The notes beneath the pieces are model-generated. The model did no database searches. It was given only the letters and a program-made list of their open reading frames with translations, and had not been told where the DNA came from. The translations under genes were made by a program, and so were the position numbers. From assembly GCA_017502435.1 (NCBI GenBank), contig JAFVUZ010000206.1, forward strand, positions 1 to 44,876: 44,876 nt of DNA. The letters are read 5' to 3'. The DNA is from Lentisphaeria bacterium. GTDB lineage: Bacteria; Verrucomicrobiota; Lentisphaeria; Victivallales; Victivallaceae. This document shows positions 21,282 to 41,957 of the stretch, piece by piece (position 1 is the stretch's first letter; each line of letters begins with the position of its first letter).

Positions 21282-21282
21282 T

Positions 21283-21945
21283 TTATTTTGCCTCCTTTCC
21301 GGTAAATTCAGAGTTTATGCTTTCACGGTTCTGCACATAAGTTGAAACGATCAGGTAAACAGCTTTGCAAACTGCACGGCTGGAAACAGTTGCACCGGTG
21401 ATGTAGGGGCAGTTGCCGCCGTCTTTGGTAATTTGCCATGCATTTGCACTTTTGTCAAGTGATTTCCCGCTGTAATAATCAAGAATTTTGTTGGGCGGAA
21501 GTGTATTTCCTGAAGTTTTTCTGCTATTAAAAAGTGATTTGAGAGTTTTTGTCTCTTTGCGGACACAGACGTTGCTGCCGAGGCCGGGGGTTTCGTTGTT
21601 TTCGAGGATGATGACAGTGCGTATGGAACCGTCGGGATTCATGCCGGCAAGAGTTTTAATTTCTCCGCCGTATCCTTTGACGGAGGTTTCACCGGCAATT
21701 CCTGCAAGTTTTCCTTGAGCGTCAAAAACTGCAGTGAAACGTATGTTATTGAAAATGGTGCTTTTTTGAGTTTTGAACGGCGGCATGACAGAGATGAGAG
21801 ATTTGTTTGCTTCAAGTGCGGCGGCACGGGCGATGGGAGCGGCGGTCTGTTTTGCACAGATTGCCAGCAAAAGTGCAGCAATCAGCCCTGTAAATGCCAG
21901 AAAAATTCCGAGGACGGCAGTATTTTCAGTTTTGTTGAGATTCAT
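21283..21945 (-). CDS. rnfG: Rnf complex subunit RnfG (covalent FMN)
   Basis: A 220-residue membrane-anchored subunit with one N-terminal helix (about 9-30) and an extracytoplasmic FMN-binding domain. The motif PYITGATVSSRAV near residue 190 contains the Thr that carries covalent FMN in the S/T-GAT signature. KGYGGEIKTLAG and ETPGLGSNV are also family features. The ATG at 21945 is preferred because AAAGGAG lies seven bases upstream; a TTG at 21951 is the alternative. It lies two bases after the rnfD stop. Confidence 0.92.
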   Translation of the reverse strand: MNLNKTENTAVLGIFLAFTGLIAALLLAICAKQTAAPIARAAALEANKSLISVMPPFKTQKSTIFNNIRFTAVFDAQGKLAGIAGETSVKGYGGEIKTLAGMNPDGSIRTVIILENNETPGLGSNVCVRKETKTLKSLFNSRKTSGNTLPPNKILDYYSGKSLDKSANAWQITKDGGNCPYITGATVSSRAVCKAVYLIVSTYVQNRESINSEFTGKEAK

Positions 21946-21947
21946 TT

Positions 21948-23090
21948 TCAAACTCCTTTCTTTTTCAGAGTTCCGAAAGGTTTGCGGGTGAAAAGTTTGT
22001 CGATGAAGGGCACGAGTGCATTCATGAAAAGTATGGCAAAACTTATGCCTTCAGGATAGTTGCCCCAGATACGTATTACGGAAGTTATCAGTCCGCATCC
22101 GATACCGAAAAGCACACAGCCGCGGTTTGTTACCGGACTTGTCACCATGTCTGTCGCCATGAAAATCGCTCCCAGCATCAGCCCGCCGGTCAGAATGTGG
22201 AAAACCGGTGACGGTGTAAGTCCCGGATAGAAAAAGTTTATAATGCCGGTGACAACAAAAACTGTTCCGACAAAAAATACCGGAACCCGCCAGTTGATAA
22301 GTTTCCAGATTATCAGCAGAATGCCGCCGAGCAGCAATGCGAGTACGCTTGTTTCTCCGATTGCTCCTGCTTTATTGCCGAGGAAATAATTTCTCCATGC
22401 AGTGCGGTTGTCAACAGAGGCGAAAATATTGCTTTTGTTGAGTTCCGCTTCACGGGGAATGGCACTGACTATGCTTAACGGAGTGGCACAGGTAATGACA
22501 TCTGTATTGTTTTTGCGGTTTGATGAATTTTGCAGTTTTTTCCACTCATCTGCAGTAAAAACTGATTTGCAGTAGGATTCATTTTTTGAAATGCTGTGCT
22601 GTGCTGTTTCAACCATGACTGAAGTCGGTGTCCATATCGTCATAAGTCCGGGGAAGGCGATCAGCAGTCCCACACGGGCGACGACAGCGGGATTGAAAGG
22701 ATTGCTGCCGAGACCGCCGAATATCTGCTTGCCGAGCCATATTGCCAGAAATGCACCGAGCAGTGAAACGTACCACGGCGTTGCAGGATTGAAGTTCAAT
22801 CCGAGAATAACCCCTGTGACTAATGCACTGCCGTCAAGCAGAGTTCTGACGATTGGAGTTTTTGCGATAAAACACCATAACCCCTCTGATAGAAGACAGA
22901 AAATTGTGGTCAGTACCAGGGTTTTGATTGCCTCCATACCGAAAAAGAAGATTCCTGCGGCAATGGCAGGTACAAGTGCGATAATTACTTTGAACATTAT
23001 CTTTGACACGCTGTTGCGGGTCTGTATGTGAGGCGACGAACTTACTACAAGTTTATCGCATGACGGCATTTTTATTGTTTTTTCTTCCAT
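21948..23090 (-). CDS. rnfD: Rnf complex subunit RnfD (covalent FMN)
   Basis: A 380-residue membrane subunit with about nine helices, related to NqrB. It begins with a soluble stretch ending SSSPHIQTRNSVSKIM, the usual RnfD N-terminus. The motif DVITCATPLSIV holds the Thr expected to bind FMN (D-x4-ATPL in the family). Other signatures are GGLGSNPFNPAVVARV and MATDMVTSPVTNRG. The ATG at 23090 is chosen over a far upstream frame start at 23207, which would overlap rnfC without a family-like extension. The insert between the NPAV segment and the ATPL motif looks somewhat long. Confidence 0.93.
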   Translation of the reverse strand: MEEKTIKMPSCDKLVVSSSPHIQTRNSVSKIMFKVIIALVPAIAAGIFFFGMEAIKTLVLTTIFCLLSEGLWCFIAKTPIVRTLLDGSALVTGVILGLNFNPATPWYVSLLGAFLAIWLGKQIFGGLGSNPFNPAVVARVGLLIAFPGLMTIWTPTSVMVETAQHSISKNESYCKSVFTADEWKKLQNSSNRKNNTDVITCATPLSIVSAIPREAELNKSNIFASVDNRTAWRNYFLGNKAGAIGETSVLALLLGGILLIIWKLINWRVPVFFVGTVFVVTGIINFFYPGLTPSPVFHILTGGLMLGAIFMATDMVTSPVTNRGCVLFGIGCGLITSVIRIWGNYPEGISFAILFMNALVPFIDKLFTRKPFGTLKKKGV

Positions 23091-23107
23091 AATATTTTCC
23101 GTTTCAT

Positions 23108-24442
23108 TTATTTTTTTGCAGTGCTGCTGCGGATTTCTGCTTTGGCACGGCGGATATGCTGAACGAGCGGTCGGTGGGCGGGGCAGATATATGCACACGC
23201 ACCGCATTCGATACAGTCCATGACATTGCTTTTCATGGCAAGATCGAATTTTTCATTTTCAATAACTGTTCCGAGATATGAGGGATTGAGATTCATAGGA
23301 CATCCCTGCAGACATCTGCCGCAGCGGATGCATGGATCAGAACTGTACTGAACGATTTTTGACGGTGGTAGCAGAAGCAGTCCGCCGGAATTTTTCTGAA
23401 TTGAACCTGCCAGCGATTTTTGGGCAAAACCCATCATCGGACCGCCGAGAATGATTTTCGCGGGTTCTTCGGTTATGCCGTCTGCAAGTTCAAGGGCTTT
23501 GACCAGCGGAGTTCCGATACGCAGACGCCAGTTGCCGGGAGTTTTGACGGCTTCACCGGTAATGGTGGTGATGCGTTCAAAAAGAGGTTTGCCTTCGGTA
23601 ACAGCTTCGGCAATGGCCACTGCTGTTGCGACATTCTGAACGACAGCTCCTGCATCGGCCGGAAGTCCGCCGGAGGGGACTTTACGTCTGGTCACAGCAT
23701 AGATAAGCTGTTTTTCTGCACCCTGCGGATATTGTACCCGCAGCCCGATTATATTTATATTGTATGGTTTGTTATGTTCTTCGAGAGTTTCGATGGCATC
23801 GAGTTTATTGATTTCGACTCCGATGTGGATGTTTTCGATACCGAGAATGCGTCCCATAATGGCGGCGCCGATAAGGACTTTTTCGGGGCATTCGAGCATC
23901 AGACGGTGGTCGGCGGTAAGATACGGTTCACATTCGGCACCGTTGATGATGAGGTCGGTTACTTTTTTGCCTTCGGGAATGGTAAGTTTGACGGCGGCGG
24001 GGAAGGCCGCACCGCCCATGCCGACGATGCCGCAGTCGGAGATACGCTGTTTGAGTTCTGCGGGATCGCACTCTTTCCAGTTAAGTCCGGGGAGAAAATC
24101 GCAGGCTTCGTCGAGCATATCGCTTTTGAGTATCATGCAGTCAACGGGCTGTCCCGTTGCACCGGTTGATTTTTCAAATTTTTCCACAACGCCGCTGGTG
24201 GGGGCATGGATCGGGGCGGAAACGAAACCGTCGGCTTCGGCGATTTTCTGACCTTTTTTTACGGTGTCGCCGACATTGACGATCCACTTCGGAGCAACTC
24301 CGATATTCTGCTGGAGAGCGATACTGTAGTAATCAAAAAGGGGTGCGGTACGGATGGAGGCATTTCTGCTCAGGTCCTTGCCGTCGTTTTCGGGATGGAT
24401 CCCGCCTCTGAAGGTACTTATATTAAGAGATTTTAAAGGCAT
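23108..24442 (-). CDS. rnfC: Rnf complex subunit RnfC (NADH site, two 4Fe-4S clusters)
   Basis: A 444-residue peripheral subunit that binds NAD(H) and FMN. The N-terminal barrel-sandwich has FRGGIHPENDGK. The nucleotide-binding region reads GIVGMGGAAFPAAVKL, then NGAECEPYLTADHRLM. Two ferredoxin motifs lie at the C-terminus, CIRCGRCLQGCP and CIECGACAYICP, supporting two 4Fe-4S clusters. AAAGGAA precedes the ATG and the gene is two bases from rnfB. Length equals the shorter RnfC forms without the repetitive tail of gamma-proteobacteria. Confidence 0.95.
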   Translation of the reverse strand: MPLKSLNISTFRGGIHPENDGKDLSRNASIRTAPLFDYYSIALQQNIGVAPKWIVNVGDTVKKGQKIAEADGFVSAPIHAPTSGVVEKFEKSTGATGQPVDCMILKSDMLDEACDFLPGLNWKECDPAELKQRISDCGIVGMGGAAFPAAVKLTIPEGKKVTDLIINGAECEPYLTADHRLMLECPEKVLIGAAIMGRILGIENIHIGVEINKLDAIETLEEHNKPYNINIIGLRVQYPQGAEKQLIYAVTRRKVPSGGLPADAGAVVQNVATAVAIAEAVTEGKPLFERITTITGEAVKTPGNWRLRIGTPLVKALELADGITEEPAKIILGGPMMGFAQKSLAGSIQKNSGGLLLLPPSKIVQYSSDPCIRCGRCLQGCPMNLNPSYLGTVIENEKFDLAMKSNVMDCIECGACAYICPAHRPLVQHIRRAKAEIRSSTAKK

Positions 24443-24444
24443 TA

Positions 24445-25314
24445 TTAAGATTCCTTTGTCTGTTCATGATTGGGGTCGTTTGTTTCGATTGCCAAATGCT
24501 GTGCTGTTGAGAGCAGACAATTTGACGGACATTTGACGGATTCAATATCTTTTTCTGAAACAAAGGTTTCAGTATCATAATTGACGGTGACTTTGAAGCC
24601 TTCCGGTTTGAAATTATCGGGGAATGCTTTTTCACATTTGCGGCATCCGATGCAGGGGACTTTGCAGTATTGGCGTTTGAGCGGGGCTTTTTCCGGATTG
24701 CTGCAGAAAATATGCACTTGAGCATCGGAGTTGACAAGTTTGATGAGTTTGCGGGGGCAGACGGAGGCACATTTGCCGCAGCCTACGCAGAGTTCCTGAT
24801 GTACAACAGCGAGGCCGTTGACGATTTCGATTGCTCCGAAAGGACAGTTTCTGGCACAACTGCCGAGGCCGAGACAGCCGTAGGAACAGCCTTTCGGACC
24901 ACCGGCGATCATGGCGGCGGAACGGCAGTCGCTGACTCCGTTGTAAAGGCTTGGATTTATGGTTTGATTTATATCACCGCCGCAGAGAACCACGGCAGTC
25001 TGACGGAAAGATACATTGTTTTCAATGCCGAGGATTTGAGCGATGGCGGCGATATTTTCCTGTGAATTTGCTGGGCATTTGCCGGGGGGGAGTTTTCCTT
25101 CGGCGACAGCTTGGGCAAAATCTGCACAGCCTGCCTGACCGCAGCCGCCGCAGTTTGCTCCCGGGAGAAGTTCGAGGATGAGGTCGATTTTCGGATTTTT
25201 TTCAACTTTGAAAAGTTTGGCGGCGATACCTATTAAAAGTCCGAGAAGAAGACCTGTAATACCCATTGCCGCTGCGGCAGATATAATTGATGAATATTCA
25301 GCAAATACGTTCAT
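24445..25314 (-). CDS. rnfB: Rnf complex subunit RnfB (multi-FeS ferredoxin)
   Basis: A 289-residue subunit that takes electrons from ferredoxin. Residues about 10-30 are a membrane anchor. It is followed by the 4Fe-4S domain CGGCGQAGCADFAQ...GKCP (about 51-80) and ferredoxin repeats CLGLGSCARNCP and CVGCGKCASVCP. A further ferredoxin-like motif reads CIGCRKCEKAFP, where the expected fourth Cys is Phe, so one cluster may be lost or altered. GGAG precedes the ATG. It is the second gene of the rnf operon. Confidence 0.95.
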   Translation of the reverse strand: MNVFAEYSSIISAAAAMGITGLLLGLLIGIAAKLFKVEKNPKIDLILELLPGANCGGCGQAGCADFAQAVAEGKLPPGKCPANSQENIAAIAQILGIENNVSFRQTAVVLCGGDINQTINPSLYNGVSDCRSAAMIAGGPKGCSYGCLGLGSCARNCPFGAIEIVNGLAVVHQELCVGCGKCASVCPRKLIKLVNSDAQVHIFCSNPEKAPLKRQYCKVPCIGCRKCEKAFPDNFKPEGFKVTVNYDTETFVSEKDIESVKCPSNCLLSTAQHLAIETNDPNHEQTKES

Positions 25315-25327
25315 TTTTCAACTCCTT

Positions 25328-25927
25328 TCAGCACAGTCCGGCAAAACCCATGAATGCCATGGCGAGTATTCCGGCTGTAATAAGTGCAATCGACATCCCC
25401 TGAAAAGGCTTGGGAATGCGGGCAAGTTCCAGACGCTCACGCAGAGAGGCGAAAAGCAGCAGTGCCAGTGCAAAACCAACTCCGGAGAAAAATCCGAATA
25501 CAGTTGAAGGCAGCACCGCTCTGGCACTTTGGGCATTGATGGTCGCCACACCGAGCACCGCACAGTTGGTGGTTATGAGCGGGAGGTAAATTCCCAGTGC
25601 CCGGTAGAGAACGGGACTTGTTTTCTGAAGGATGATTTCCAGTAATTGCACCAGTCCTGCAATAACGACGATGAAAAGCAGGATCTGCAGAAAACTGAGA
25701 TCGACTTTGACTCCGGCAATCTCTTTTATCTGCAGCAGATAGTGATATATCAATGATGTGCAGAAAGATGCCAGTGTCATAACGAAAATTACCGCACCAC
25801 CCATACCCAGAGCCGTGGATATTTTCTTTGAAACTCCGAGAAACGGACAGATGCCGAGAAAACGTGACAGAACGAAGTTGTAAACAAACACCGCTCCGAT
25901 TGTTAATTCCATATAATTATCAGTCAT
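25328..25927 (-). CDS. rnfA: Rnf complex subunit RnfA
   Basis: A 199-residue six-helix membrane subunit, homologous to RnfE/NqrE. The start is typical (VYNFVLSRFLGICPFLGVS), as is LPLITTNCAVLGVA near residue 110, which contains the Cys proposed to bind the membrane FeS cluster together with the one in the first helix. GAGGT precedes the ATG. It is the first gene of the operon rnfA-B-C-D-G-E-murG, driven by the near-consensus promoter just upstream. Confidence 0.95.
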   Translation of the reverse strand: MTDNYMELTIGAVFVYNFVLSRFLGICPFLGVSKKISTALGMGGAVIFVMTLASFCTSLIYHYLLQIKEIAGVKVDLSFLQILLFIVVIAGLVQLLEIILQKTSPVLYRALGIYLPLITTNCAVLGVATINAQSARAVLPSTVFGFFSGVGFALALLLFASLRERLELARIPKPFQGMSIALITAGILAMAFMGFAGLC

Positions 25928-27130: not shown

Positions 27131-27168
27131 TATTATGTAAAAAAGTGATCAACCAAGAGGATTTTTAT

Positions 27169-28368
27169 ATGAGTAAGATTAAAACAGACCACATTTTCAC
27201 CTCGGAATCGGTCTCCGAGGGCCATCCCGACAAAGTTTCAGATCAGATTTCCGATGCCATTTTGGATGCCTGTCTGATGCAGGACCCCGACAGCCGCGTA
27301 GCCTGCGAAACTCTTTGTACCACCGATTTGATCGTTATTTCAGGAGAAATAACTACCAATGCCAAAGTAAACTGGCAGGATATTGCACTTAATGTCGTCC
27401 GTGAAATCGGTTATAATGATGAAAAAGTCGGCTTCAGTGCCGACACTGCCAAAGTAATAGTTGCTATTCATAAACAGTCCGCTGATATTTCCCAGGGCGT
27501 CACCGAAGCAACAAATTCCACCGGTGAACAGGGTGCAGGGGATCAGGGAATGATGTTCGGCTATGCTTCAGATGAAACCGAAGAACTTATGCCGGCTCCA
27601 ATCATTTATGCACATCGCATTGTTGAGAGACTGGCTGAACTCCGTCATAATCAGCCCGAAAAGTACAGTTTTCTGCGTCCCGACTCAAAAAGTCAGGTTT
27701 CAGTTCATTACAAAGACGGCATTCCCCAGCATATCGAATCAGTCGTTGTTTCACATCAGCATACTCCTGATATGAATATGGATGATTTGACTGCATTGGT
27801 CAAACAGGTCGTCAAAGAGGTTATTCCGGCAGAACTTATTGATGATGATATTGTTTACTATATCAATCCTACCGGACGTTTTGAAATCGGCGGTCCGCAT
27901 GGCGATACCGGTTTGACCGGACGCAAGATTATTGTTGATACTTACGGCGGTGTCGGTTCTCACGGCGGCGGTGCTTTCTCCGGCAAAGACCCCTCCAAGG
28001 TCGATCGTTCCGCAGCTTATATGTGCCGCTATATCGCCAAAAATATCGTCGGTGCCAAACTTGCAAAAAAATGTGAGATCCAGGTTGCTTACGCTATCGG
28101 TGTTGCCGAACCTCTGAGTATCAATGTCGATACTTACGGAACCGGAAAACTCAAAAATGATGCCGATCTTGAAAAGGTCATCCGTCAGTGCTTCAGTCTC
28201 AAACCCAAAGCCATTGTTGAAACCCTTTCTCTCAAAAAGCCCGGCAATGGCTGGTGTTATCGCGACAGTGCCGCTTACGGACATTTCGGCAGAGATATTT
28301 TCCCGTGGGAGAAACTCGACAAAGTCGCCGAACTGCAGAAAGCCGCAGAAAATTTTGAATGCAAATAA
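27169..28368 (+). CDS. metK: S-adenosylmethionine synthase
   Basis: A 399-residue enzyme that makes SAM from methionine and ATP. Motifs are the N-terminal [16 protein letters not shown], the ATP loop [12 protein letters not shown] and the glycine-rich [19 protein letters not shown]. Length is typical. The start at 27169 has AGAGGA upstream and gives the expected N-terminus [15 protein letters not shown]; a frame start at 27145 lacks such a signal. It opens an operon with adenosine kinase, ahcY, metX and metW, which together make SAM, recycle its product and supply methionine. Confidence 0.97.
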
Positions 28369-28391
28369 ATCCTTGCAGCAAAGGAGACATC

Positions 28392-29372
28392 ATGCGTGAA
28401 ATTTTTCTGCTCGGTTTCGGAGCCCCGCTGGTCGATATCCTCGTCAATGTCAATGATGATTTCATTGCCGCCAATGTCGGTGACAAAGGCGGTATGGATC
28501 ACTGGAGCATAGAAGAACAGCAAAAAAGTCTGGCTCTTGCAGACAATAAATATTCTGTTGCCAACGGCGGTTCCGCCGGAAATACGGTGAACTGTCTTGC
28601 CAATCTCGGTGCTTCATGTGCCATGCTCGGTATGGTCGGAGATGATGAATTAGGCAGAAATTATGCAGCTGAGTTAAGGAATTGCGGCGGCAGTGCGGAA
28701 TATATTTTCACCCATGCTGAACAGCCGACCGGACGTTGTATCTCCTTTATTACTCCGGATTCAGAGCGTACCATGCGTTCAAATCTGGGGGCTTCGAGTT
28801 TTGTGACTGCCGCAGATATAGACAAGGTTGATTTCAGCCGTATTGAAATTGTTTATTTTGAAGGATACCGTCTGTTTGAGATGGCAAGTTTTGATTATGC
28901 ACTTGAAAAAGCCCGGCAGGCGGGATGCAAAATCGCCATTGACTTTGCATCTTTCAATGTTGTCGAACTTTTTCATGGTAAACTCCGTTCTTTGTATGAA
29001 AACAGGGCTTTTGATATGATTTTTGCCAATGAAGAGGAGGCAAAAGCCTTTTTCGGCAATGACGAACATGAAAAAAATCTTACTGAAGCAATGAATTTCT
29101 GCGACATTGCCGTTATCAAACTCGGCAAAGCAGGTTCATTGATCGCCAGAGACGGCAGAATCAGCAGAATTGCTGTAACTCCATGCAAGGCAGTTGATAC
29201 CACAGGAGCGGGAGATTCATGGGCAGGAGGATTTTTTTACGGCTTGTCCCGCAATTACGGCATGGCTGAATGCGGCAGAATCGCATCAGCAGTCAGTGCC
29301 GCAGTCGTTCAGGTGCAGGGGGCAAAACTTCCGCAGGATGTCTGGGATGATTTGAGAAAAAAATATTTATAA
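28392..29372 (+). CDS. PfkB-family kinase, probably adenosine kinase
   Basis: A 326-residue ribokinase-fold enzyme. It has the N-terminal substrate region (GGSAGNTVNCLANLG) and the C-terminal PfkB signature DTTGAGDSWAGGFFYG with the catalytic Asp. The long N-terminus resembles adenosine kinases of the type found beside ahcY. Placed between metK and ahcY, it would phosphorylate adenosine released from S-adenosylhomocysteine and pull that reaction forward. AAGGAG precedes the ATG at 28392. The exact nucleoside or sugar substrate is inferred from context. Confidence 0.82.
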   Translation: MREIFLLGFGAPLVDILVNVNDDFIAANVGDKGGMDHWSIEEQQKSLALADNKYSVANGGSAGNTVNCLANLGASCAMLGMVGDDELGRNYAAELRNCGGSAEYIFTHAEQPTGRCISFITPDSERTMRSNLGASSFVTAADIDKVDFSRIEIVYFEGYRLFEMASFDYALEKARQAGCKIAIDFASFNVVELFHGKLRSLYENRAFDMIFANEEEAKAFFGNDEHEKNLTEAMNFCDIAVIKLGKAGSLIARDGRISRIAVTPCKAVDTTGAGDSWAGGFFYGLSRNYGMAECGRIASAVSAAVVQVQGAKLPQDVWDDLRKKYL

Positions 29373-29387
29373 TATGGAGAATGTATA

Positions 29388-30794
29388 ATGGATTATAAAG
29401 TAAAAGATATTTCACTTGCCGATTTCGGCAGAAGAGAGTTGGATATTGCTGAAGCCGAAATGCCCGGCTTGATGGCATTGCGTGAAAAATACGGCAAAAC
29501 AAAACCGCTTGCCGGTATCAAAATTTCAGGTTCACTGCATATGACCGTCCAGACTGCCGTTCTGATTGAAACTCTGGCTGAACTCGGAGCCAGTATCCGC
29601 TGGGCAAGCTGCAACATTTTCTCAACTCAGGATCATGCCGCAGCTGCAATCGCCGCCCGTGGTATTCCCGTTTTTGCATGGAAGGGTGAAACTCTGGAGG
29701 AATATTGGGATTGTACCTACCGTATGCTTACTTATCCTGACGGCAGCGGACCGGATCAGATCGTTGACGACGGCGGTGATGCAACTTTGCTTATCCACAT
29801 GGGCGTTGAGGCTGAAGATAATCCCGCCATGCTTGATGAACCCACTGATAACAAAGAACTGCAGGTCATCAAAAATCTGCTGAAAAAAATCCGGCAGGAA
29901 AATCCCGGTCACTGGCATAAAGTCGCCGCCAACGTCCGCGGCGTTTCCGAAGAGACCACTACCGGAGTTCACCGTCTCGAACAGATGGAAAAAAATAATA
30001 AACTTCTTTTTCAGGCAGTTAATGTCAATGATGCCGTCACCAAGAGCAAGTTTGACAATATTTACGGCTGCCGTCACTCTCTGCCCGATGGTATCAAACG
30101 GGCTTTGGACGTAATGATAGCCGGCAAAACTGTTATGATTTGCGGTTATGGCGACGTCGGCAAAGGCTGTGCCGAATCAATGCATAATGAGCGTGCAAGA
30201 GTTATGGTCAGCGAAGTTGACCCGATCTGTGCTTTGCAGGCCTGCATGGCAGGTTACAAAGTCTGTACCATAGAAGATGCTTTGAGTGAAGCGGATATCT
30301 TTGTCACCTGCACCGGCAACTGCGATATTATCACTGCTGAACATATGGCAAAGATGAAGGATCAGGCGATCGTTTGCAATATCGGTCACTTTGATAATGA
30401 AATTATGGTTGCCGATCTTGAAAAATATCCCGGCATCGTCAAAACAGAGATAAAAGGTTCATTCTGTCCGGTTCATAAATACACTTTCGCTGACGGACAT
30501 TCGATTTATCTGCTGGCAGAAGGCCGACTGGTCAATCTCGGATGTGCTACCGGTCATCCGTCATTTGTGATGTCAACAAGTTTCTGCAATCAGACTTTGG
30601 CACATCTGGACATTGCCGCCAATCCCGACCGCAAGATCGGAGTTTACCGCATCAGCAAGAAACTTGACGAGGAAGTCGCCCGTCTGCATCTTGCCAAACT
30701 CGGTGCCAAATTGAGTAAACTTACGGAAAAACAGGCCGCTTATATCGGAGTTGAAGTTGACGGCCCGTTCAAGAATGATTTGTACCGTTACTGA
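29388..30794 (+). CDS. ahcY: Adenosylhomocysteinase
   Basis: A 468-residue NAD-dependent enzyme that splits S-adenosylhomocysteine into homocysteine and adenosine. Present are the substrate-site [16 protein letters not shown], the NAD loop [10 protein letters not shown] and [11 protein letters not shown], the [10 protein letters not shown] region and the characteristic end KNDLYRY, whose Lys and Tyr reach into the partner subunit's NAD site. TGGAGAATG precedes the ATG. It is the third gene of the SAM-cycle operon, 15 bp after the kinase gene, and metX begins 16 bp after its stop. Confidence 0.97.
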
Positions 30795-30810
30795 TATAAA
30801 GGGTGGAATT

Positions 30811-31965
30811 TTGAGTGAAAATACAGAAAAATGGATAGTTGAAGCTAAAGATTTCGTGCTGCCGGAACCGCTGAAACTTGATTGCGGCAAGACATTGAGC
30901 GGAGTTTCACTGCGTTATGAAACTTATGGCAAACTCAATGCTGACAAAAGCAATGCGATAATGGTCTTTCACGCTCTGTCCGGTGATGCTCATATTTGCG
31001 GCTATCACAGCGAAGAGGATGCCAAACCCGGATGGTGGAGCGATATGGTCGGTCCCGGCAAGTATATTGATACGGATAAATATTTTGTTGTCTGTTCCAA
31101 TGTCCTCGGCGGCTGTTCCGGTTCAACCGGCCCGCGTTCGATAAATCCGGAAACCAACAGAATGTACAACAGTGATTTTCCGGTCATCACCATTCGTGAT
31201 ATGGTTCGTGCCCAGCATGAACTTATCAAATCTTTCGGAATCAAAAAACTTCTGGCGGTTGTCGGCGGTTCAATGGGCGGTATGCAGGCTCTGGAATGGG
31301 TTGTGAATTATCCGGAAATGGTGCAGAGTGCATTGCCTATTGCCACCACCACACAGCTTTCGGCACAGGGGATTGCATTCAACTGGGTCAGCCGTGAAGC
31401 AATAAAATACGATCCCAATTTCAAAAACGGGGAATATACTGCTGAAAGTGTTCCGGATAAAGGACTTGCAACTGCACGAATGCTGGCACATATCACTTAT
31501 TTGAGTGATGAATCAATGGGCAGAAAATTCGGCAGGGGCTTGCAGAAAAGTGAAAATTATTCATTCAATTTTGATTATGATTTTCAGGTTGAAAGTTATC
31601 TGGAGCATCAGGGCAGACGTTTTGTTGAACGTTTTGATGCCAACAGTTATTTCTACATTACCCGTGCAATCGATTATTTTGATTTGGCGGGCAGATATAA
31701 TGGAAATCTTGCCAAAGCGTTTGAAAAAGTCAAGAGTTCATTTCTGGTGGTTTCGTTTACGAGTGACTGGCTTTTCCCGAGTGAACAGTCCATTGCATTG
31801 GTGCGGGCTCTGTTGAAAAATCAGATCGAGGTGAGTTATGTCAATATTAAATCAGGATATGGACATGATGCGTTTCTCCTTGAGTTTGAAACACTTGGAG
31901 CGATGGTAAGAGATTTTCTTGATAATGAATACAAAAAAATACCGGAGGCAGGAAAAAATGGATAA
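30811..31965 (+). CDS. metX: Homoserine O-acyltransferase
   Basis: A 384-residue alpha/beta-hydrolase fold enzyme that acylates homoserine in methionine synthesis. The nucleophile elbow is GGSMGGMQALEW, with the catalytic Asp in TSDWLFPSE and His in GYGHDAFLLE; SGDAHICGY and GGCSGSTGPRSINP are typical MetX stretches. The frame opens at 30751 inside ahcY, but the likely start is the TTG at 30811, with GGGTGG seven bases upstream and an N-terminus of MSENTEKWIVEAKDF. Acetyl versus succinyl donor cannot be decided by eye. It overlaps metW by eight bases. Confidence 0.93.
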   Translation: MSENTEKWIVEAKDFVLPEPLKLDCGKTLSGVSLRYETYGKLNADKSNAIMVFHALSGDAHICGYHSEEDAKPGWWSDMVGPGKYIDTDKYFVVCSNVLGGCSGSTGPRSINPETNRMYNSDFPVITIRDMVRAQHELIKSFGIKKLLAVVGGSMGGMQALEWVVNYPEMVQSALPIATTTQLSAQGIAFNWVSREAIKYDPNFKNGEYTAESVPDKGLATARMLAHITYLSDESMGRKFGRGLQKSENYSFNFDYDFQVESYLEHQGRRFVERFDANSYFYITRAIDYFDLAGRYNGNLAKAFEKVKSSFLVVSFTSDWLFPSEQSIALVRALLKNQIEVSYVNIKSGYGHDAFLLEFETLGAMVRDFLDNEYKKIPEAGKNG

Positions 31966-32563
31966 CAGTTTTTTGAACAGCCGCCGTGATTTGCAGATCG
32001 TCAGCCGTCTGATTGAACCGGATTCCAGAATCCTTGACCTCGGATGCGGCGACGGCTCATTTCTGGCATATTTGAAACATCTGAAAAATGCCTCTGTTCT
32101 GGGGTTGGAACTTGAACAGTCTCAGATCGGCAAGTGTATTGCCAACGGAGTTGCTGTGATTCAGAGCGACCTCAACCGTAAACTGGATTTTGCGGATGAC
32201 AAAAGTTTTGATTATGTTATCCTGAGCCATACTCTGCAGGAACTTGAAAATCCTGCTGAATTGCTGGAGGAAATTGTCCGTGTCGGCAAAAAAGCAGTGG
32301 TAAGTTTTATCAATTTCGGTTATTTTCCGAACCGTTTGCAGCTGCTTTTCAGCGGACGTATGCCGCGTAACAAGTCTCTGCCGCATGAATGGTATAATAC
32401 TCCCAATATTCATCTGGGGACGATTGCTGATTTTCAACGTCTCTGCAGAGAAAAAAATATAAATATAGTTCAGTCCATTGCTCTCGGCAGCACCTGGGAT
32501 GCTCCGTTGTGGTTCGGACATAATTTATTCGCTCCCGGATGTGTTTTTGTTTTGAGCAGTTGA
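31958..32563 (+). CDS. metW: Methionine biosynthesis protein MetW
   Basis: A 201-residue class I methyltransferase-fold protein. The SAM loop reads ILDLGCGDGSFLAYL, and the remainder (DYVILSHTLQELENP; FINFGYFPNRLQLLFSGRMP) matches MetW, a partner of MetX in homoserine acylation in proteobacteria and others. The ATG at 31958 has GGAGGCAGGA upstream and overlaps the metX end by eight bases, consistent with translational coupling and a MetXW pair. Confidence 0.92.
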   Translation: MDNSFLNSRRDLQIVSRLIEPDSRILDLGCGDGSFLAYLKHLKNASVLGLELEQSQIGKCIANGVAVIQSDLNRKLDFADDKSFDYVILSHTLQELENPAELLEEIVRVGKKAVVSFINFGYFPNRLQLLFSGRMPRNKSLPHEWYNTPNIHLGTIADFQRLCREKNINIVQSIALGSTWDAPLWFGHNLFAPGCVFVLSS

Positions 32564-34822: not shown

Positions 34823-36757
34823 ATGAGTATATGGCAGCAGCCGGTACAGCAGGTTCTTGTGATTTCGCTGATACTGGCGTCGGGCGGTATCGTCAGTGCA
34901 TTTTTCAACAGCCGTATCAGGGGACGCATTTTTGCAGTGATTGCAGGATTGTCGGGACTTTATGTTACGGGGTTGATGCTTGGCGGTCTCCGTGGTCACA
35001 CGTTTGAGTATTCGCTTGGGATGATGGATTTCATGCTTGACAATGTCGGGCGTTTTTTCATTGCGACAGTGGGGCTCGGAATTTTTTTCTGTGCGTTGTA
35101 CAATGCATCACTGTCGGGAAGTTCCCGTGCGTATGAGCAGAAGAACCGTTTTTATTACGGAGTGCTCGGCATATTTGCGGCATCAATGCTGCAGGTGATG
35201 CTGGTCAAAATTGACGGCACATTGAACTCTGCATTGCTGTTTATGGCGGCGTGGGAAATAATGTCGCTGTTTTCATTTCTGCTGATAGTATGCAGTGATG
35301 AGGCAAAAGGTGTTTCCCGCAAGGCATTGACTTATTTGCTGGTAATGCACGTTTCTGCGGCATTTCTGATGCTGGGATTTATTTCTATCAGTCTGAGTCC
35401 TTTCGGCGGGAGTTTCTTCGGATTTCTGGCATTGCTGATCGGTTTCGGAATCAAACTCGGTTTATTTCCGACGCATTTTTATATGGCTGACAGTTACGAA
35501 TCTGCTCCCGGAGCGTCTGCCGGATTGATTTCCGGTGTGATGATCAACATGGCGATTTACGGAATATTGCGGACATTTCTGGTCTGTGTCAGTTTCGCGG
35601 GTATATTCGGATATATTCTGCTGGCGGCGGGAGTTGTTTCTGCACTTTGGGGTGTATTCCGTGCTTTGGCGGAGAACAGAGCCAAACGGGTTCTTGCCGG
35701 CAGCAGTATGGAAAATATGGGACTGGTGATCATCGGTGTTGGAGTTTTTGTTCTTGGAGAATATGTATATCAGGCAAATTTTGCCGCACATCTGGCATTG
35801 GCGGGAGTGTTTATCCATTCACTCAACCATTCACTTTTCAAATCCCAGTTGTTTTATGCAGTTGATCTTATCCGCAACTGGAGCGGAACGACGGATCTTG
35901 ACAAACTCGGCGGTCAGGGAATGAATTTTCCCGGTCTCAAAAAGAGTACAATGCTGGGAGTTCTCGGCATATCCTCTCTGCCGCCTATGAATGGTTTTGT
36001 TGGCAAGTTTTTGCTGTATGCGAGTTTCTTTGAACTTATGTTCAGCGTTGAATCGTTCAAGGTCGCATTTATTTGTATTTTCTGTCTGGTGGTACTGGGA
36101 ACTGTCGGTGCATTGAGTTTGTTTGTTTTTGTCAAATTTTACACAATGATATTCCTCGGTGCGTTGCGTGAAAAACTTTCGTTTCAGAAGAAAAATCCGG
36201 AAAGCAGTCTTAATAATACGGTTTTATGTGCGATGTCGCTTCTGTCATTGACATTGGGTGTATTTCCGATAGTTTTTGCTTATTCAAGGGGTAAATTTAC
36301 TGAAATACTTTTTGAATTGAGTGTCAATGCGTTTCTGATCATCGGATTTTCTCTGCTGGTATGGGCGTTCCGTCATATCCTGACGGCGATGAACGGCTCC
36401 AAACGAGTTCCGACATGGGGCTGCGGATACAGCAATATTACCTCAAAAATGGAATATACTGCTGATTCATTGAGCCTGCCGCTGATGCGTCTGCTGAATA
36501 CACTTTTCCCGCGCAAGGAAAATAATGAATCTGTCAGTGAATTGTATCCTGCAGACATTGAAAGACATTATGAATTCCGCAATCCCATCGGTGAAGGAGT
36601 TGATTATGTTTGCAAGCAGATCAATAAACTTCTCAGCAAGCTGCAATTTCTCCAGTCCGGTATGATGCAGAGTTATCTGTGGATAAGTGTACTGTTTCTG
36701 GTATTGGCTATAGTTTATGCTATTTTCAGCAGTTCCGGAACGGAGGTGGTAAAATGA
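34823..36757 (+). CDS. hyfB: HyfB-like antiporter subunit of an Ehr-type complex
   Basis: A 644-residue membrane subunit of the NuoL/Mrp antiporter family, as in hydrogenase-4 HyfB. About sixteen helices are expected. The conserved helix 5 Glu145 (WEIMSLFSFLLI) and helix 7 Lys211 (GIKLGLFPTHFY) are present, so a proton or sodium path appears intact. The nearby motif that commonly reads VMIKM is VMINM. Residues about 500-570 include WGCGYSN, a feature of hydrogenase-4 antiporter subunits. GGAAG precedes the ATG. It is the first of six genes, overlapping the next by four bases. Confidence 0.9.
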   Translation: MSIWQQPVQQVLVISLILASGGIVSAFFNSRIRGRIFAVIAGLSGLYVTGLMLGGLRGHTFEYSLGMMDFMLDNVGRFFIATVGLGIFFCALYNASLSGSSRAYEQKNRFYYGVLGIFAASMLQVMLVKIDGTLNSALLFMAAWEIMSLFSFLLIVCSDEAKGVSRKALTYLLVMHVSAAFLMLGFISISLSPFGGSFFGFLALLIGFGIKLGLFPTHFYMADSYESAPGASAGLISGVMINMAIYGILRTFLVCVSFAGIFGYILLAAGVVSALWGVFRALAENRAKRVLAGSSMENMGLVIIGVGVFVLGEYVYQANFAAHLALAGVFIHSLNHSLFKSQLFYAVDLIRNWSGTTDLDKLGGQGMNFPGLKKSTMLGVLGISSLPPMNGFVGKFLLYASFFELMFSVESFKVAFICIFCLVVLGTVGALSLFVFVKFYTMIFLGALREKLSFQKKNPESSLNNTVLCAMSLLSLTLGVFPIVFAYSRGKFTEILFELSVNAFLIIGFSLLVWAFRHILTAMNGSKRVPTWGCGYSNITSKMEYTADSLSLPLMRLLNTLFPRKENNESVSELYPADIERHYEFRNPIGEGVDYVCKQINKLLSKLQFLQSGMMQSYLWISVLFLVLAIVYAIFSSSGTEVVK

Positions 36758-37662
36758 AAAACATCATTCTCAATATGATATTTATTTTTGTTCTGCCCTA
36801 TTTGATGTGCGGTATTATCAAAAAGGTGAAAGCGTTTTTTGCCCGCCGCAAAGGACCGTCGGTCTGGCAGTATGGTTATGATCTTGCAAAACTTCTCCGC
36901 AAAGAGGAACTTTTGAGCAATCTTTCCTGTCTCCGTAACGGCGGAGTGCTGACTTTGGCAGGAGTTCTGGCGGCGGCAATGCTGATTCCGCAGATCAGCG
37001 GCAGAAGTATTCTGGCACTGGATTATTATGATTACATCCTTTTTATATATATGCTGAGTTTCTCCCGTTTTTTCACCGTGATTGCAGCGATGGAATCGGG
37101 ATGCAGTTTTGAAGGAATGGGCAGTTCCCGTGAACTTATTTTCTCGGTCACAGGCGAAATCGCATTGATGATGACGGTTGCGGCACTGGCTTTTTACGGT
37201 CATGCTGAAAACTTCAGCGGCATTTTTGAGGCTGTTGCCGCAGGCGGAACAGAAGGACTGCTGATTGCCATCCTTGCATCATGCGTTCTGTTTGTGCTGA
37301 TGCTGCTGGAAGGCAGCCGTATGCCGATCGACGATCCTGAAACCCATCTGGAACTTACCATGATCCATGAAGCGATGGTGCTTGATCAGTCCGGACCACA
37401 GCTGGCATTTATGAGTTTCAGCGGCATGGTCAAAGTGTATCTTTTTGCATCATTTATACTTTCGCTTGTGCTGGCACAGCTGCGTGATTGTGCGTGGTAC
37501 GGGATATATTTTGCCATTGGGATTGCAGTAATTTCAATCATTATCGGTATTATTGAATCACTGCAGGCGAGATTAAGAATGGTTCATGTTCATCAATACA
37601 TACTTTTTTCGGCGGCGTTGTCATTGATACTGCTGTTGAGTGTAATAATTTTCAAGGTGTGA
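36754..37662 (+). CDS. hyfC: HyfC-like membrane subunit (NuoH family)
   Basis: A 302-residue membrane protein of the NuoH/HycD family that anchors the soluble arm and forms the first part of the ion channel. It has ARRKGPSVWQYGYDLAKLLRKE in its first cytoplasmic loop and EGSRMPIDDPETHLELTMIHEAM, the signature acidic loop of group 4 hydrogenases. The start at 36754 is chosen because GGAGGTGG lies upstream and the ATG overlaps the preceding stop. About eight helices. Confidence 0.92.
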   Translation: MKNIILNMIFIFVLPYLMCGIIKKVKAFFARRKGPSVWQYGYDLAKLLRKEELLSNLSCLRNGGVLTLAGVLAAAMLIPQISGRSILALDYYDYILFIYMLSFSRFFTVIAAMESGCSFEGMGSSRELIFSVTGEIALMMTVAALAFYGHAENFSGIFEAVAAGGTEGLLIAILASCVLFVLMLLEGSRMPIDDPETHLELTMIHEAMVLDQSGPQLAFMSFSGMVKVYLFASFILSLVLAQLRDCAWYGIYFAIGIAVISIIIGIIESLQARLRMVHVHQYILFSAALSLILLLSVIIFKV

Positions 37663-37665
37663 CAA

Positions 37666-38310
37666 ATGGAAATATTTGAATTTATTGTAACATTGCTGTT
37701 GATGATAACATTGCTGCGTATATCCACCAGCGGACGGCTGGAACTTTATATCAGAATGCTGTCAATTCAGGGACTTTTGCTGTTTTCGCTGGTCTTTTTC
37801 ACTGTATCGCATGAAAGTTACGTGACGCTGGCGGTGGCAGTTATTGAAACTTTGCTGCTGAAAGCGGTGTTTGTGCCGTTTTACCTCAATAAAGTTATCA
37901 AAGATAATAATATCAAACGTGAAACCGAACCGTATGTGCCGCATATATTTTCATTGCTGATGGTCAGTTTGGGAATCGGCTTGAGTCTGGCGGCGGCGTT
38001 TTATATGAAAAAAGAGATACCGGAAATCAAAATCGTACTGCTCGGCAGCGGTATTGCCATGATACTTTGCGGTATGTTTGTGATTTTGAGCCGCAAAAAA
38101 CTCATTACTCATGTCATGGGGTACTGCGTGCTTGAAAACGGCATTTTTCTGCTGAGTCTGTCAGCTGCAAAAGAGTTGCCGGTCATCGTCAGCCTCGGAG
38201 TTGCACTTGATGCTTTTGTATGGGTTCTGCTGGCAGGAATTCTGGTCAGAATCATCCGTACAGAACTTCACAGTCAATCCATTGATGAATTGAAAGGACT
38301 GAAGAATTAA
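37666..38310 (+). CDS. hyfE: HyfE-like membrane subunit
   Basis: A 214-residue protein with about six helices, matching HyfE, which corresponds to the NuoK-like part with extra helices. Recognisable stretches are HVMGYCVLENGIFLLSLS, which holds the membrane Glu of the NuoK type, and the C-terminal HSQSIDELKGLKN. It starts three bases after hyfC ends and is followed directly by the hyfF-like gene. Confidence 0.88.
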   Translation: MEIFEFIVTLLLMITLLRISTSGRLELYIRMLSIQGLLLFSLVFFTVSHESYVTLAVAVIETLLLKAVFVPFYLNKVIKDNNIKRETEPYVPHIFSLLMVSLGIGLSLAAAFYMKKEIPEIKIVLLGSGIAMILCGMFVILSRKKLITHVMGYCVLENGIFLLSLSAAKELPVIVSLGVALDAFVWVLLAGILVRIIRTELHSQSIDELKGLKN

Positions 38311-38311
38311 T

Positions 38312-39724
38312 ATGGATATTTTTATTGCAGTTATTGTGTTGTTTGCCGCGTTGGCATGGTTCAACAAGAGTGTCAAAGCATCCGGTCGTATTTTCTTTGT
38401 TTTCGGTATATTACATCTGGCGGCGGTACTGTGGATGTTTATTGCCAAACCGTTGGCGATAGGTTCATTGTTTCTGCCGGTCGGTCTCTGGGCTGACCCT
38501 TTGAGCTGTTATGCTTTGCTGGTGGAATCTCTGGTGCTGCTGGCTGTGTCATGGTACAATATGGATTTTGTTCTGCGTCACGAAGAGGTTCCGTATCAGA
38601 AAAAGAGCCCGCTGTATCATGCCTCTCTCATCGGTTTTGTCGGAGCTATGGATCTGGCAATTCTGTCAGATAATCTGGGCATGGTCTGGGTATTTATTGA
38701 ACTCTCAACTCTTTTGAGTGCATTGCTGATCGCACATCACGGTTCGGCAAATTCACTGGAGGCGACATGGAAGTATGTTTTCATCTGTTCTGTCGGTATT
38801 GCATTTGCCTTTGCCGGAATCGTACTGCTGCTGATTGCAACGGACGGGGAGTTGAATATGAGTTGTATCAAACTTGCAAAAGATAAACTTTTTGCGGTCA
38901 AGATCGCTCTGCCGTTTATGATTATCGGGTTCGGTACCAAAGCGGGGCTGGCTCCGGTGCATAACTGGCTGCCGGATGCTCACAGTGAAGCCCCGACACC
39001 GGTTTCGGCACTGCTTTCTGCATCATTGCTCAACAGTGCGATGCTGCCGATAGTGCGTATTCTTCATCTTACAGAAGGGACGGGGTTGGAAAATTTTGCA
39101 GCAACAATTCTTCTGACGATGGGTTTTCTGTCATTGGCTGTGGCGGCTGTATTTATTTCCCATGCCTATAATTTCAAACGTATGCTGGCGTATTCATCAG
39201 TTGAAAACATGGGTATTCTGGCGATTGCGGCGGCAGTGAACTGCAAGGCTGGATTTCTGCTGCACATGGCGGGACATTCGCTGATAAAATGTGCACTGTT
39301 TCTGACTGCCGGCAATATTCTGAGTCTGTACGGAACCAAACTTATCAAAGATGTTTCCGGTATGGTCAGGCTCCATAAAGGACTTGCATATTTGTTTATG
39401 ATTGGAATACTTGCGATTATGGGGTTTGTGCCGTTCATTCTTTTTGTCAGTGAATTTATGGTTATTGCGGCACTTTTTACTTACAATAAATTTTTGTGTG
39501 TGCTGTTTATTGTATTGCTGACAATAATAATGGCAGGTCTCGGCAGAAATATGCTGTCGATGGTACGCGGTGAATCAAAATTGAACCAGTCCGGATATAA
39601 ATTCAACTCCGGAGCGATTGCCCCGGTCGTGATTCTGCTGGTACTTGCTGCAGTGCTGTTTTTTGCAGTTGTATATTGCGGTATAAATAACAAAGATATT
39701 TTAAAATTGCTGGGGGGATTCTGA
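38312..39724 (+). CDS. hyfF: HyfF-like antiporter subunit
   Basis: A 470-residue antiporter-like subunit of the NuoN/NuoM family. The ion-path residues are in place: Glu130 in FIELSTLLSALLIA and Lys210 in FGTKAGLAPVHNWLPDAHSE. The stretch SEAPTPVSALLSASLLNSA is the usual one after that helix. About fourteen helices. Starts one base after the hyfE-like stop; its stop overlaps the next ATG in TGATG. Together with the hyfB-like subunit the complex would have two antiporter modules. Confidence 0.92.
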   Translation: MDIFIAVIVLFAALAWFNKSVKASGRIFFVFGILHLAAVLWMFIAKPLAIGSLFLPVGLWADPLSCYALLVESLVLLAVSWYNMDFVLRHEEVPYQKKSPLYHASLIGFVGAMDLAILSDNLGMVWVFIELSTLLSALLIAHHGSANSLEATWKYVFICSVGIAFAFAGIVLLLIATDGELNMSCIKLAKDKLFAVKIALPFMIIGFGTKAGLAPVHNWLPDAHSEAPTPVSALLSASLLNSAMLPIVRILHLTEGTGLENFAATILLTMGFLSLAVAAVFISHAYNFKRMLAYSSVENMGILAIAAAVNCKAGFLLHMAGHSLIKCALFLTAGNILSLYGTKLIKDVSGMVRLHKGLAYLFMIGILAIMGFVPFILFVSEFMVIAALFTYNKFLCVLFIVLLTIIMAGLGRNMLSMVRGESKLNQSGYKFNSGAIAPVVILLVLAAVLFFAVVYCGINNKDILKLLGGF

Positions 39725-41202
39725 TGATAGAGGTAAAAAATAATCAGAGTATAAGTATTGCTGAACTGCAGAATGTTCCTTATGATTTCTTTATGGGCAA
39801 TGTTGTCACTCAGCGTTTCCGCTGTGTCGGTATTGCCGCACGCAGAAGAGATGATGTTGTGGATGCATTTATTCTCATGGCTTCTGCAAGTTTCAGTCTG
39901 TATTTGGAATATGTCGAATTCAAACTTGACAAGGTTTATCCGTCAGTTGGCAAAGTTGTGCCGTCATGGGTGAATTTTGAACGTGAACTTGCCGAAAATT
40001 TCGGCGTTGAATATGCCGATAATCCCTGGCTCAAACCGATTCGCTTCCCGAAAGATGCCTGTCACAAACTCAGCATGGCGGAATATCCGTTTTTCAAGGA
40101 AAAAGGCAGCGGTGTTCATGAAGTTGCTGTCGGTCCTGTTCATGCGGGGGTTATTGAACCCGGACATTTCCGTTTCATGTGCAGAGGTGAAAAAATCGAT
40201 CATCTGGAAATTCAGCTCGGCTATCAGCACAGAGGTATTGAAAAACTCATGTGTCAGGGCAAAAACACTTCCAAACGTGTTCTTGCAGAAAGCATCACCT
40301 CCGACAGTGCAGTTATCAATTCGTATTTGTATTTTAATATTCTTGAAAGTGCTTACGGCATAAGTGTTCCTGAAAGAGCCGCTGCCATCCGTACGATTTG
40401 TATTGAACTTGAAAAAGCCGCTTTGCATCTTTCAACATTGAGCGGTATTGCCAATGATATCGGTTATGTGATGGGTGCAGCGTTTGCCGGTGCGACAAGG
40501 ACTTATGTTATCAATTCATTGCAGAGTATCTGCGGCAACCGTTTCGGACGCGGCTTGATGACTCTCGGCGGTGTTGCATTTGACATCGACGATGAACTCA
40601 ATAAAAAACTTAAAGATACTCTCAATATGGTTCACGGACGTGTGGTTCATCTCAAAAATACCATGATGGAATCTCCCGGAGTGCGTTCCCGTCTGGAACT
40701 TACCGGAACTGTCAGTAAGTCTGTTGCTGAAGAGATCGGCTTGACCGGTGTTGCAGGCAGAGCGTCCGGAGTTGATGTCGATGCACGTTATTTTATGGAT
40801 AATATGTTCTATGAAAATCTGCATAATCAAAAAAGTGCATTTGTCCATAAAGGCGATGTTTTTTCACGCACTTATCAGCGGCTTGAGGATGCGATCGCTT
40901 CGTTGGAATTTGTTTTAAAAATGCTTTTATCCATGCCTGAAGGCGAAATTGTTTCCAGTGTTCAGGACGGATTTAAAAATGACTCTCTGATATTCTCTGT
41001 CGGGGAGGGGCCCCGCGGCGAAACAGTTCATATGGCATTGACCGGCAGTCATGCCGACAAACCTTTTGCAGTTTATAAACTGAAAGATCCGTCATTTATC
41101 AACTGGTTCGCACTGGCATTGAGTGTACGCAACAATCAGATCAGCGACTTTCCGCTGTGCAACAAAAGTTTTGATCTTTCATATTCGGGGAATGACTTAT
41201 GA
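39724..41202 (+). CDS. hyfG: Ehr-type large subunit, NuoC-NuoD fusion without NiFe ligands
   Basis: A 492-residue protein. Residues about 15-110 are NuoC-like (WVNFERELAENFGVEYADNP), and the rest is NuoD/hydrogenase large-subunit-like (LEIQLGYQHRGIEKLM). In group 4 hydrogenases two C-x2-C pairs bind nickel and iron. Here the first site reads AESITSDSA (T192 and S195 replace Cys) and the second SFDLSYSG (S486 and G489 replace Cys). The fold and C-terminal shape are kept but no NiFe centre can be bound in the known way. This fits energy-converting hydrogenase-related (Ehr) complexes. Electron partner unknown. Confidence 0.9.
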   Translation: MIEVKNNQSISIAELQNVPYDFFMGNVVTQRFRCVGIAARRRDDVVDAFILMASASFSLYLEYVEFKLDKVYPSVGKVVPSWVNFERELAENFGVEYADNPWLKPIRFPKDACHKLSMAEYPFFKEKGSGVHEVAVGPVHAGVIEPGHFRFMCRGEKIDHLEIQLGYQHRGIEKLMCQGKNTSKRVLAESITSDSAVINSYLYFNILESAYGISVPERAAAIRTICIELEKAALHLSTLSGIANDIGYVMGAAFAGATRTYVINSLQSICGNRFGRGLMTLGGVAFDIDDELNKKLKDTLNMVHGRVVHLKNTMMESPGVRSRLELTGTVSKSVAEEIGLTGVAGRASGVDVDARYFMDNMFYENLHNQKSAFVHKGDVFSRTYQRLEDAIASLEFVLKMLLSMPEGEIVSSVQDGFKNDSLIFSVGEGPRGETVHMALTGSHADKPFAVYKLKDPSFINWFALALSVRNNQISDFPLCNKSFDLSYSGNDL

Positions 41203-41957
41203 TACAGGCATTACGTTTATTTTTCAAGCAGGGCCGTCAGTATATCGGCAATCTTTTCACCGCACAGGTTGATAAAAAATACCGTGGATTTCCGCAGTTC
41301 AAAGCAGATCTTTGCACTCATTGCGGCAAATGTATGGCAAACTGTCCCGTTCAGGCGATTTCAGAAGATTTGACTGTGGACATCGGCAAGTGTCAGTTCT
41401 GCGGCGAATGTGTCAGAAACTGTTCTGCAGGTGCGGCAAATTTCTGTAATTTTCACCACACCGGCAGCACTGACCGCGAAAAATTGAAAATCGCTCCCGG
41501 TACAACTCCGGAAGATTACGAAAAATCAGCCGTTGAAATCCGCAAAGAGATCGTTGCCATGTTCGGCCGTTCTCTCAAACTCCGCAGTGTTTCTGCCGGC
41601 GGCTGCAATGGTTGTGAACTGGAACTCAATGCGACCGGCAATGTCAATTTTGACCTCGGACGTTACGGCATTGATATTGCCGCAAGTCCCCGCCATGCTG
41701 ACGGAATTATAATTTCAGGACCTATAAGCAGAAATATGGCTTATGCTTTGCAGGAAACTTATACGGCTGTCCCGAATCCGAAAATCGTTGTGCTGCTGGG
41801 CTCATGTGCCATTTCCGGCGGAGTATTTGCTGAATCAGGGGAAATAGACCGTTCATTTATGGAGGAGAACAAAATTGATTTGTACATCCCCGGCTGTCCA
41901 CCGCATCCGCTGACTATAGCTAATGCAATTCTTGCATTTCTCAATCGCAAAAAATAA
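41199..41957 (+). CDS. hyfI: Ehr-type small subunit: ferredoxin domain fused to NuoB-like domain
   Basis: A 252-residue fusion. Residues about 30-85 hold two 4Fe-4S motifs, CTHCGKCMANCP and CQFCGECVRNCS, as in HyfH/NuoI. Residues about 125-250 form the NuoB/HyfI domain with the four ligands of the proximal (N2-type) cluster: C136 and C139 (GGCNGCELEL), C203 (GSCAISGG) and C233 (PGCPPHP). So the electron wire is intact while the large subunit's metal site is gone. In E. coli hydrogenase-4 these are two separate genes. The start overlaps the large-subunit stop by four bases. Confidence 0.92.
   Translation: MIQALRLFFKQGRQYIGNLFTAQVDKKYRGFPQFKADLCTHCGKCMANCPVQAISEDLTVDIGKCQFCGECVRNCSAGAANFCNFHHTGSTDREKLKIAPGTTPEDYEKSAVEIRKEIVAMFGRSLKLRSVSAGGCNGCELELNATGNVNFDLGRYGIDIAASPRHADGIIISGPISRNMAYALQETYTAVPNPKIVVLLGSCAISGGVFAESGEIDRSFMEENKIDLYIPGCPPHPLTIANAILAFLNRKK

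Follow-up and report, generated by a model that had tools for sequence, protein, structure and literature searches.

A six-gene membrane complex of a gut bacterium with the architecture of a hydrogen-making enzyme and without the four NiFe cysteines

Introduction

Ehr complexes (energy-converting or Ech hydrogenase-related) are a published kind of membrane complex with no NiFe ligands and no known function (PMC6349859, PMC7304191, PMC10284858, PMC10432482), and no electron acceptor is described for them in the literature that we found. In a published tree, Lentisphaerae sequences lie among the Ehr complexes and cluster with Riflemargulisbacteria (PMC6349859). Among relatives in which proton reduction has been replaced, the one characterised biochemically is MBS of P. 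furiosus. Its catalysis takes place at a three-Cys proximal cluster, two of the old NiFe cysteines are retained, and an equivalent of E21, the proton-transfer residue of MbhL, is absent (PMC7684303).

The stretch of DNA analysed here (44,876 nucleotides, referred to as the window) comes from a metagenome-assembled genome (MAG) of 2.86 Mb with a completeness of 87%, of which it is contig 210. At positions 34823-41957 it carries six genes for a membrane complex built like a hydrogen-making enzyme minus the four NiFe cysteines. With described Ehr complexes it shares a group 4-like large subunit without CxxC pairs, antiporter-like, NuoH-like and HyfE-like subunits and a small, NuoB-like subunit, and the large subunit groups with others that have no ligands. 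It differs from them in that the otherwise common Cys488 is Ser in the window and its nearest relative, and in that neither formate dehydrogenase nor quinone synthesis was found in the window's lineage. E. coli Hyf and Hyc, the closest NiFe group in the tree and the best fold match, share subunits B-C-E-F-G-H/I and the motifs EPGHFR and HRG(M/I)EK; the window's complex differs in having neither NiFe cysteines nor HyfD, in the fusion of ferredoxin domain and small subunit, and in belonging to a genus without HypD. MBS would share with it the role of a ferredoxin-linked ion pump with an abandoned NiFe site, whereas the complex described here has a four-Cys proximal cluster, an E21 equivalent and none of the old NiFe cysteines. 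Complex I (NuoCD, NuoB, NuoH) shares fold and membrane arm. In contrast to complex I, the window has I144 and S193 in the columns of the NuoD/Nqo4 quinone-headgroup His and Tyr, its small subunit has no tandem Cys, and its operon has no NADH module.

Results

The gene block

A sequence-only reading of the window had given the coordinates and gene content of the block, and both were borne out when the six genes were identified by Pfam and NCBIfam (Table 1). All are read in one direction and overlap or almost touch; the ATG of the NuoH/HyfC-like gene at 36754, for example, gives a 4-base overlap with the hyfB stop. Because NCBIfam matches fell below the curated cut-offs, the proteins are best considered related to the named Hyf equivalogs without belonging to them. 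The 49-kDa family (PF00346) was matched by one protein only in the window's genome, and thus no additional, NiFe-bearing large subunit of group 4 was found there. The nearest named relative is a Lentisphaeria MAG from sheep colon, and the two large subunits are 78% identical. Compared with the nearest relative, all six genes show a purifying pattern, with dN far smaller than dS (0.17 and 1.13 for the large subunit, 0.09 and 1.23 for the small subunit).

Table 1. Features of the six-gene block, in positions of the window.
Feature	Position	Strand	Basis
HyfB-like antiporter subunit, 644 aa	34823..36757	+	Pfam PF00361; NCBIfam hydrogenase 4 subunit B, below cut-off
HyfB-like subunit: TM5 Glu E145, TM7 Lys K211	within 34823..36757	+	alignment
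NuoH/HyfC-like subunit, 302 aa	36754..37662	+	Pfam PF00146; alignment with HyfC, HycD, NuoH
HyfE-like (NuoK-type) subunit, 214 aa	37666..38310	+	PF00420; NCBIfam hydrogenase 4 membrane subunit, below cut-off
HyfF-like antiporter subunit, 470 aa; E130, K210	38312..39724	+	PF00361; NCBIfam hydrogenase 4 subunit F, below cut-off; alignment
EhrL-type large subunit, 492 aa, fused 30-kDa and 49-kDa domains	39724..41202	+	PF00329, PF00346; predicted fold like HycE, TM 0.83
Large-subunit E145, aligned to MbhL E21	40156..40158	+	invariant in 29 relatives
Vacated N-terminal NiFe ligand pair T192-S-D-S195 (CxxC in hydrogenases)	40297..40308	+	alignments
Vacated C-terminal NiFe ligand pair S486-Y-S-G489, followed by NDL and protein end	41179..41190	+	alignments
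EhrS-type small subunit, 252 aa, ferredoxin domain fused to NuoB-like domain	41199..41957	+	PF01058 and Fer4 families
Two [4Fe-4S] ferredoxin motifs, C39-C49 and C65-C75	41313..41423	+	small-subunit sequence
Proximal [4Fe-4S] ligands C136, C139, C203, C233, hydrogenase-type CxxC spacing	41604..41897 (span)	+	small-subunit sequence

The NiFe ligand columns

The large subunit had been said to keep RGIEK and to have lost every NiFe-binding cysteine. HRGIEK is present, and T192, S195, S486 and G489 fall in the four Cys columns when the protein is aligned by HMMER to MbhL and HycE, and again when it is aligned by MAFFT with HycE, HyfG and eight relatives bearing the DPCxSC motif. No cysteine stands elsewhere in NiFe register, the only ones being at 34, 113, 153, 177, 226, 270 and 479. 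The compared Ehr large subunits never have more than one Cys over the four columns (C192 in L003, L077 and L083, C195 in L039, C486 in Mycobacterium branderi), which, taken with dN far below dS, argues that the loss of ligands is not due to chance.

Around the site, 29 aligned relatives show no variation at E145, H148, E189, R431, N480, K481, S482, S486, Y487, G489, D491 and the terminal L492, and next to none at G193 and D194. The window departs from this pattern with S193, where Gly is usual, and with S488, where most relatives of its own branch (branch A, below) have Cys; both residues are common to the window and its nearest relative (L003). The protein ends three residues beyond the last ligand column, as it also does in Ech-type relatives. 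On these alignments, the vacated NiFe site is remodelled rather than decayed, and since the E21 equivalent (E145) is retained, delivery of protons to the old site would seem to remain important. The structure predicted for the large subunit (pLDDT 86.7) matched HycE best, followed by NuoCD and MbhL. Note that confidence is low at the pocket loop (139-146) and the C-terminus, so that the model is uninformative on pocket shape.

Family placement

Large subunits without the ligand pairs formed one clade (SH-aLRT 100), with E. coli HycE/HyfG as sister (98), in a quick tree that has a long outgroup branch and no bootstrap. The ligand-less sequences compared in it are those of this phylum and plasmid-encoded ones of Variovorax, Rhizobium, Burkholderia, Rhodococcus, Allomeiothermus and others, and these make up the clade. 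Two labels were coined for this analysis: “branch A”, which includes the window, carries a ferredoxin domain on the small subunit and forms one group (100), and “branch B”, which has mostly a short small subunit bearing the proximal cluster only and is possibly not one clade. A third, very divergent type of ligand-less large subunit (ERFAGTTAF ... GLSVAENDR) was seen in the same order (L044:3656-5227), grouping on long branches with Mycobacterium and Burkholderia plasmid sequences.

The sequence-only reading had called the complex an Ehr and not a hydrogenase, and on both counts it is backed by the ligand columns, the tree and the lack of HypD in the genus. By these markers, the complex is an Ehr complex and does not make H2.

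The small subunit and the membrane arm

The four proximal-cluster cysteines and two ferredoxin motifs (both CxxCxxCxxxC) attributed to the small subunit were found, and the Glu and Lys said to be kept in the two antiporter subunits (HyfB E145/K211, HyfF E130/K210) align with E144 and K234 of NuoM. Proximal-cluster ligands are present in every branch-A small subunit read. The ferredoxin motifs of the window are complete; several branch-A members have lost the first and have a degenerate second, so the route of electron entry varies.

Ehr small subunits minus most or all proximal-cluster cysteines were found on three separate branches, in Allomeiothermus silvanus, M. branderi and two Lentisphaeria genomes (L092:10296-11168, L098:9848-10642, L036:10011-10562 and L040:1794-2342). 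Their membrane-arm genes are kept, and GSTNACEQ, GDDA and GDPP are examples of what replaces the lost cysteines. A non-redox role thus stays open for part of the family: some Ehr complexes may work without the usual electron route, if the cysteine-poor ones are functional, which has no direct bearing on the complex of the window. In one Lentisphaeria genome (G050, L036:3397-18021) two Ehr gene sets lie in one run: a branch-B set (small subunit first, cysteines lost) separates the large-subunit gene of a branch-A set from its small-subunit gene; this assignment of genes to two sets is a reading backed by gene order in Rhodococcus and G043.

Gene content of related genomes

Ehr was present in 32 of 61 relatives. 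HypD, for NiFe maturation, was missing in 17 of these 32, including all three genomes of the window's genus (G000, G001 and G002, each searched without a match). These absences come from draft genomes, and G002, at 98% completeness, weighs most for the genus. HypD was present in 15 of the 16 relatives with an Ech-like large-subunit match (at eight of these loci, the CxxC motifs themselves were read). Over the phylum, a strong Ehr match (our own threshold, E below about 1e-120) was obtained in 107 of 388 genomes, and HypD was missing in 54 of the 107.

UbiA, for quinone synthesis, gave no match over cut-off in G000-G002 and was missing in 22 of the 32 Ehr genomes, with uptake of external quinone a possibility. 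The molybdopterin oxidoreductase family PF00384 was likewise without a match over cut-off in 31 of the 32 Ehr genomes of the order, the window's genus included. Not finding HypD, UbiA or a molybdopterin oxidoreductase in the genus disfavours the hydrogenase, quinone-reductase and formate-dehydrogenase readings. An FeFe hydrogenase occurs in 59 of the 61 relatives, including the window's genome.

RnfC was kept in 16 of the 17 Ehr genomes without HypD, missing in 13 of the 15 with HypD, and kept in all five HypD genomes without Ehr. This pattern should be considered a lead only, because the lineages are not independent.

Gene neighbourhood

A six-gene Rnf cluster lies at 20595-25927 on the minus strand of the window (RnfB and RnfC assigned by NCBIfam, the rest by eye). 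That it shares the window with the Ehr genes, as the sequence-only reading had pointed out, proved uninformative: Ehr and RnfC are on one contig in G000 and G001 and on separate contigs in G002. Rnf genes were set aside as Ehr partners because of this inconsistent linkage. When a partner gene was sought among the Ehr neighbours of relatives and plasmids, the block stood alone and its neighbours differed. A sialate-esterase-like gene 13 bases downstream was left out of the operon, since downstream ORF sizes differ in L003 and L042.

Directly upstream of the Ehr operon, several relatives have a gene for a helix-turn-helix and PTS-EIIA protein (L034:4581-5267, L052:11992-12768), a possible regulator of the operon in those relatives. 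In the window its place is occupied by an FtsQ-type gene on the opposite strand. By eye, positions 27145-32563 hold a SAM/methionine cluster (S-adenosylmethionine synthetase, PfkB kinase, adenosylhomocysteinase, homoserine acetyltransferase and MetW). The plasmid Ehr genes of Burkholderiales (L091, L097, L096, L102) have spermidine-synthase-like, universal stress and HPr-like genes nearby.

Discussion

Ehr was already published as a kind without known function and reported from Lentisphaerae; what is new here is that searches of the window's genus yielded no HypD, UbiA or molybdopterin oxidoreductase. The sequence-only reading had proposed an ion-pumping, ferredoxin-fed machine that does not reduce protons. 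The last part stands, pumping is reasonable in view of the antiporter residues, and only the fused ferredoxin domain points to ferredoxin as the source of electrons. We tentatively favour a ferredoxin-fed ion pump in whose emptied pocket a small polar acceptor would be reduced. Reduced ferredoxin is the most likely donor; its electrons would enter at the fused ferredoxin domain and, as the cysteine motifs suggest, pass via two [4Fe-4S] clusters to the proximal cluster, and from there to a small polar, protonatable molecule in the former NiFe pocket. Candidate pocket residues are E145, H148, D194, S195, R431, K481, S486, Y487 and the C-terminal end. To judge from conserved residues, the two antiporter-like subunits may transport H+ or Na+, coupled to the reduction via the NuoH-like subunit.

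Support for this pump comes from the loss of all four ligand columns in a single well-supported clade, from the lack of HypD in three genomes of the genus against its presence in nearly all Ech-like relatives, and from the pocket invariants, branch-A proximal cluster and membrane charges kept under purifying selection on six genes. However, no acceptor or partner gene was found and the neighbours are not conserved; two-electron catalysis by a fully ligated [4Fe-4S] cluster, next to a site that has no known cofactor, would be out of the ordinary; and ferredoxin motifs are degenerate in several branch-A relatives, with the proximal cluster lost in other Ehr branches.

The machine might also run in reverse, an ion gradient driving electrons uphill from a donor oxidised at the pocket to reduced ferredoxin. 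Complex-I-like machines are reversible, and RnfC in 16 of 17 Ehr genomes without HypD means that another ferredoxin-oxidising pump is present. No donor was identified, however, and direction cannot be told from sequence; we regard reverse operation as unlikely.

Somewhat less likely still is a non-redox or weakly redox machine, in which binding or conversion of a ligand in the pocket would gate ion flow through the Mrp-like membrane arm and the clusters would be structural or regulatory. It draws on the genomes that have lost the proximal-cluster cysteines and kept the membrane-arm genes, and on the many plasmid Ehr complexes with a proximal cluster only and no ferredoxin domain, but proximal ligands are kept in the window and the branch-A members read, and selection on the small subunit is strongly purifying. 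A broader proposal, held with equally little confidence, is that the constant Ehr core consists of emptied pocket and membrane arm, and not of the electron chain; some Ehr complexes, minus NiFe and proximal cluster, would then be complex-I-like pumps driven or gated by ligand chemistry in place of electron transfer, with the window's complex a redox-active cousin.

A sulfane-sulfur (polysulfide or disulfide) reductase is improbable: MBS sets the precedent for replacing proton reduction, but its three-Cys proximal cluster, two remaining NiFe cysteines and missing E21 equivalent are each at odds with what is found here. A small complex I acting as ferredoxin:quinone oxidoreductase is very improbable in spite of the NuoCD-like fold and of NuoD as best partial NCBIfam match, given I144 and S193 in the headgroup columns, a small subunit without tandem Cys, and the missing UbiA; in this lineage, the complex probably reduces no quinone. 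Coupling to formate dehydrogenase (FDH-Ehr) is a published proposal for Margulisbacteria and Saganbacteria, and Ehr is more abundant on formate in Geobacter, but it is hard to credit where PF00384 is missing from 31 of 32 Ehr genomes of the order. A NiFe hydrogenase with unorthodox ligands has HycE as closest fold in its favour and is barely credible with Ser, Thr and Gly in the ligand columns, no HypD in the genus and an FeFe hydrogenase present instead.

Ehr complexes are found across bacteria and archaea and stand where hydrogenases and complex I meet in evolution, and this analysis weakens several guesses on their function. A genus apparently without nickel maturation, quinone synthesis and molybdopterin oxidoreductases leaves fewer options and is thus a useful test case, and the conserved replacement site offers specific residues for mutation.
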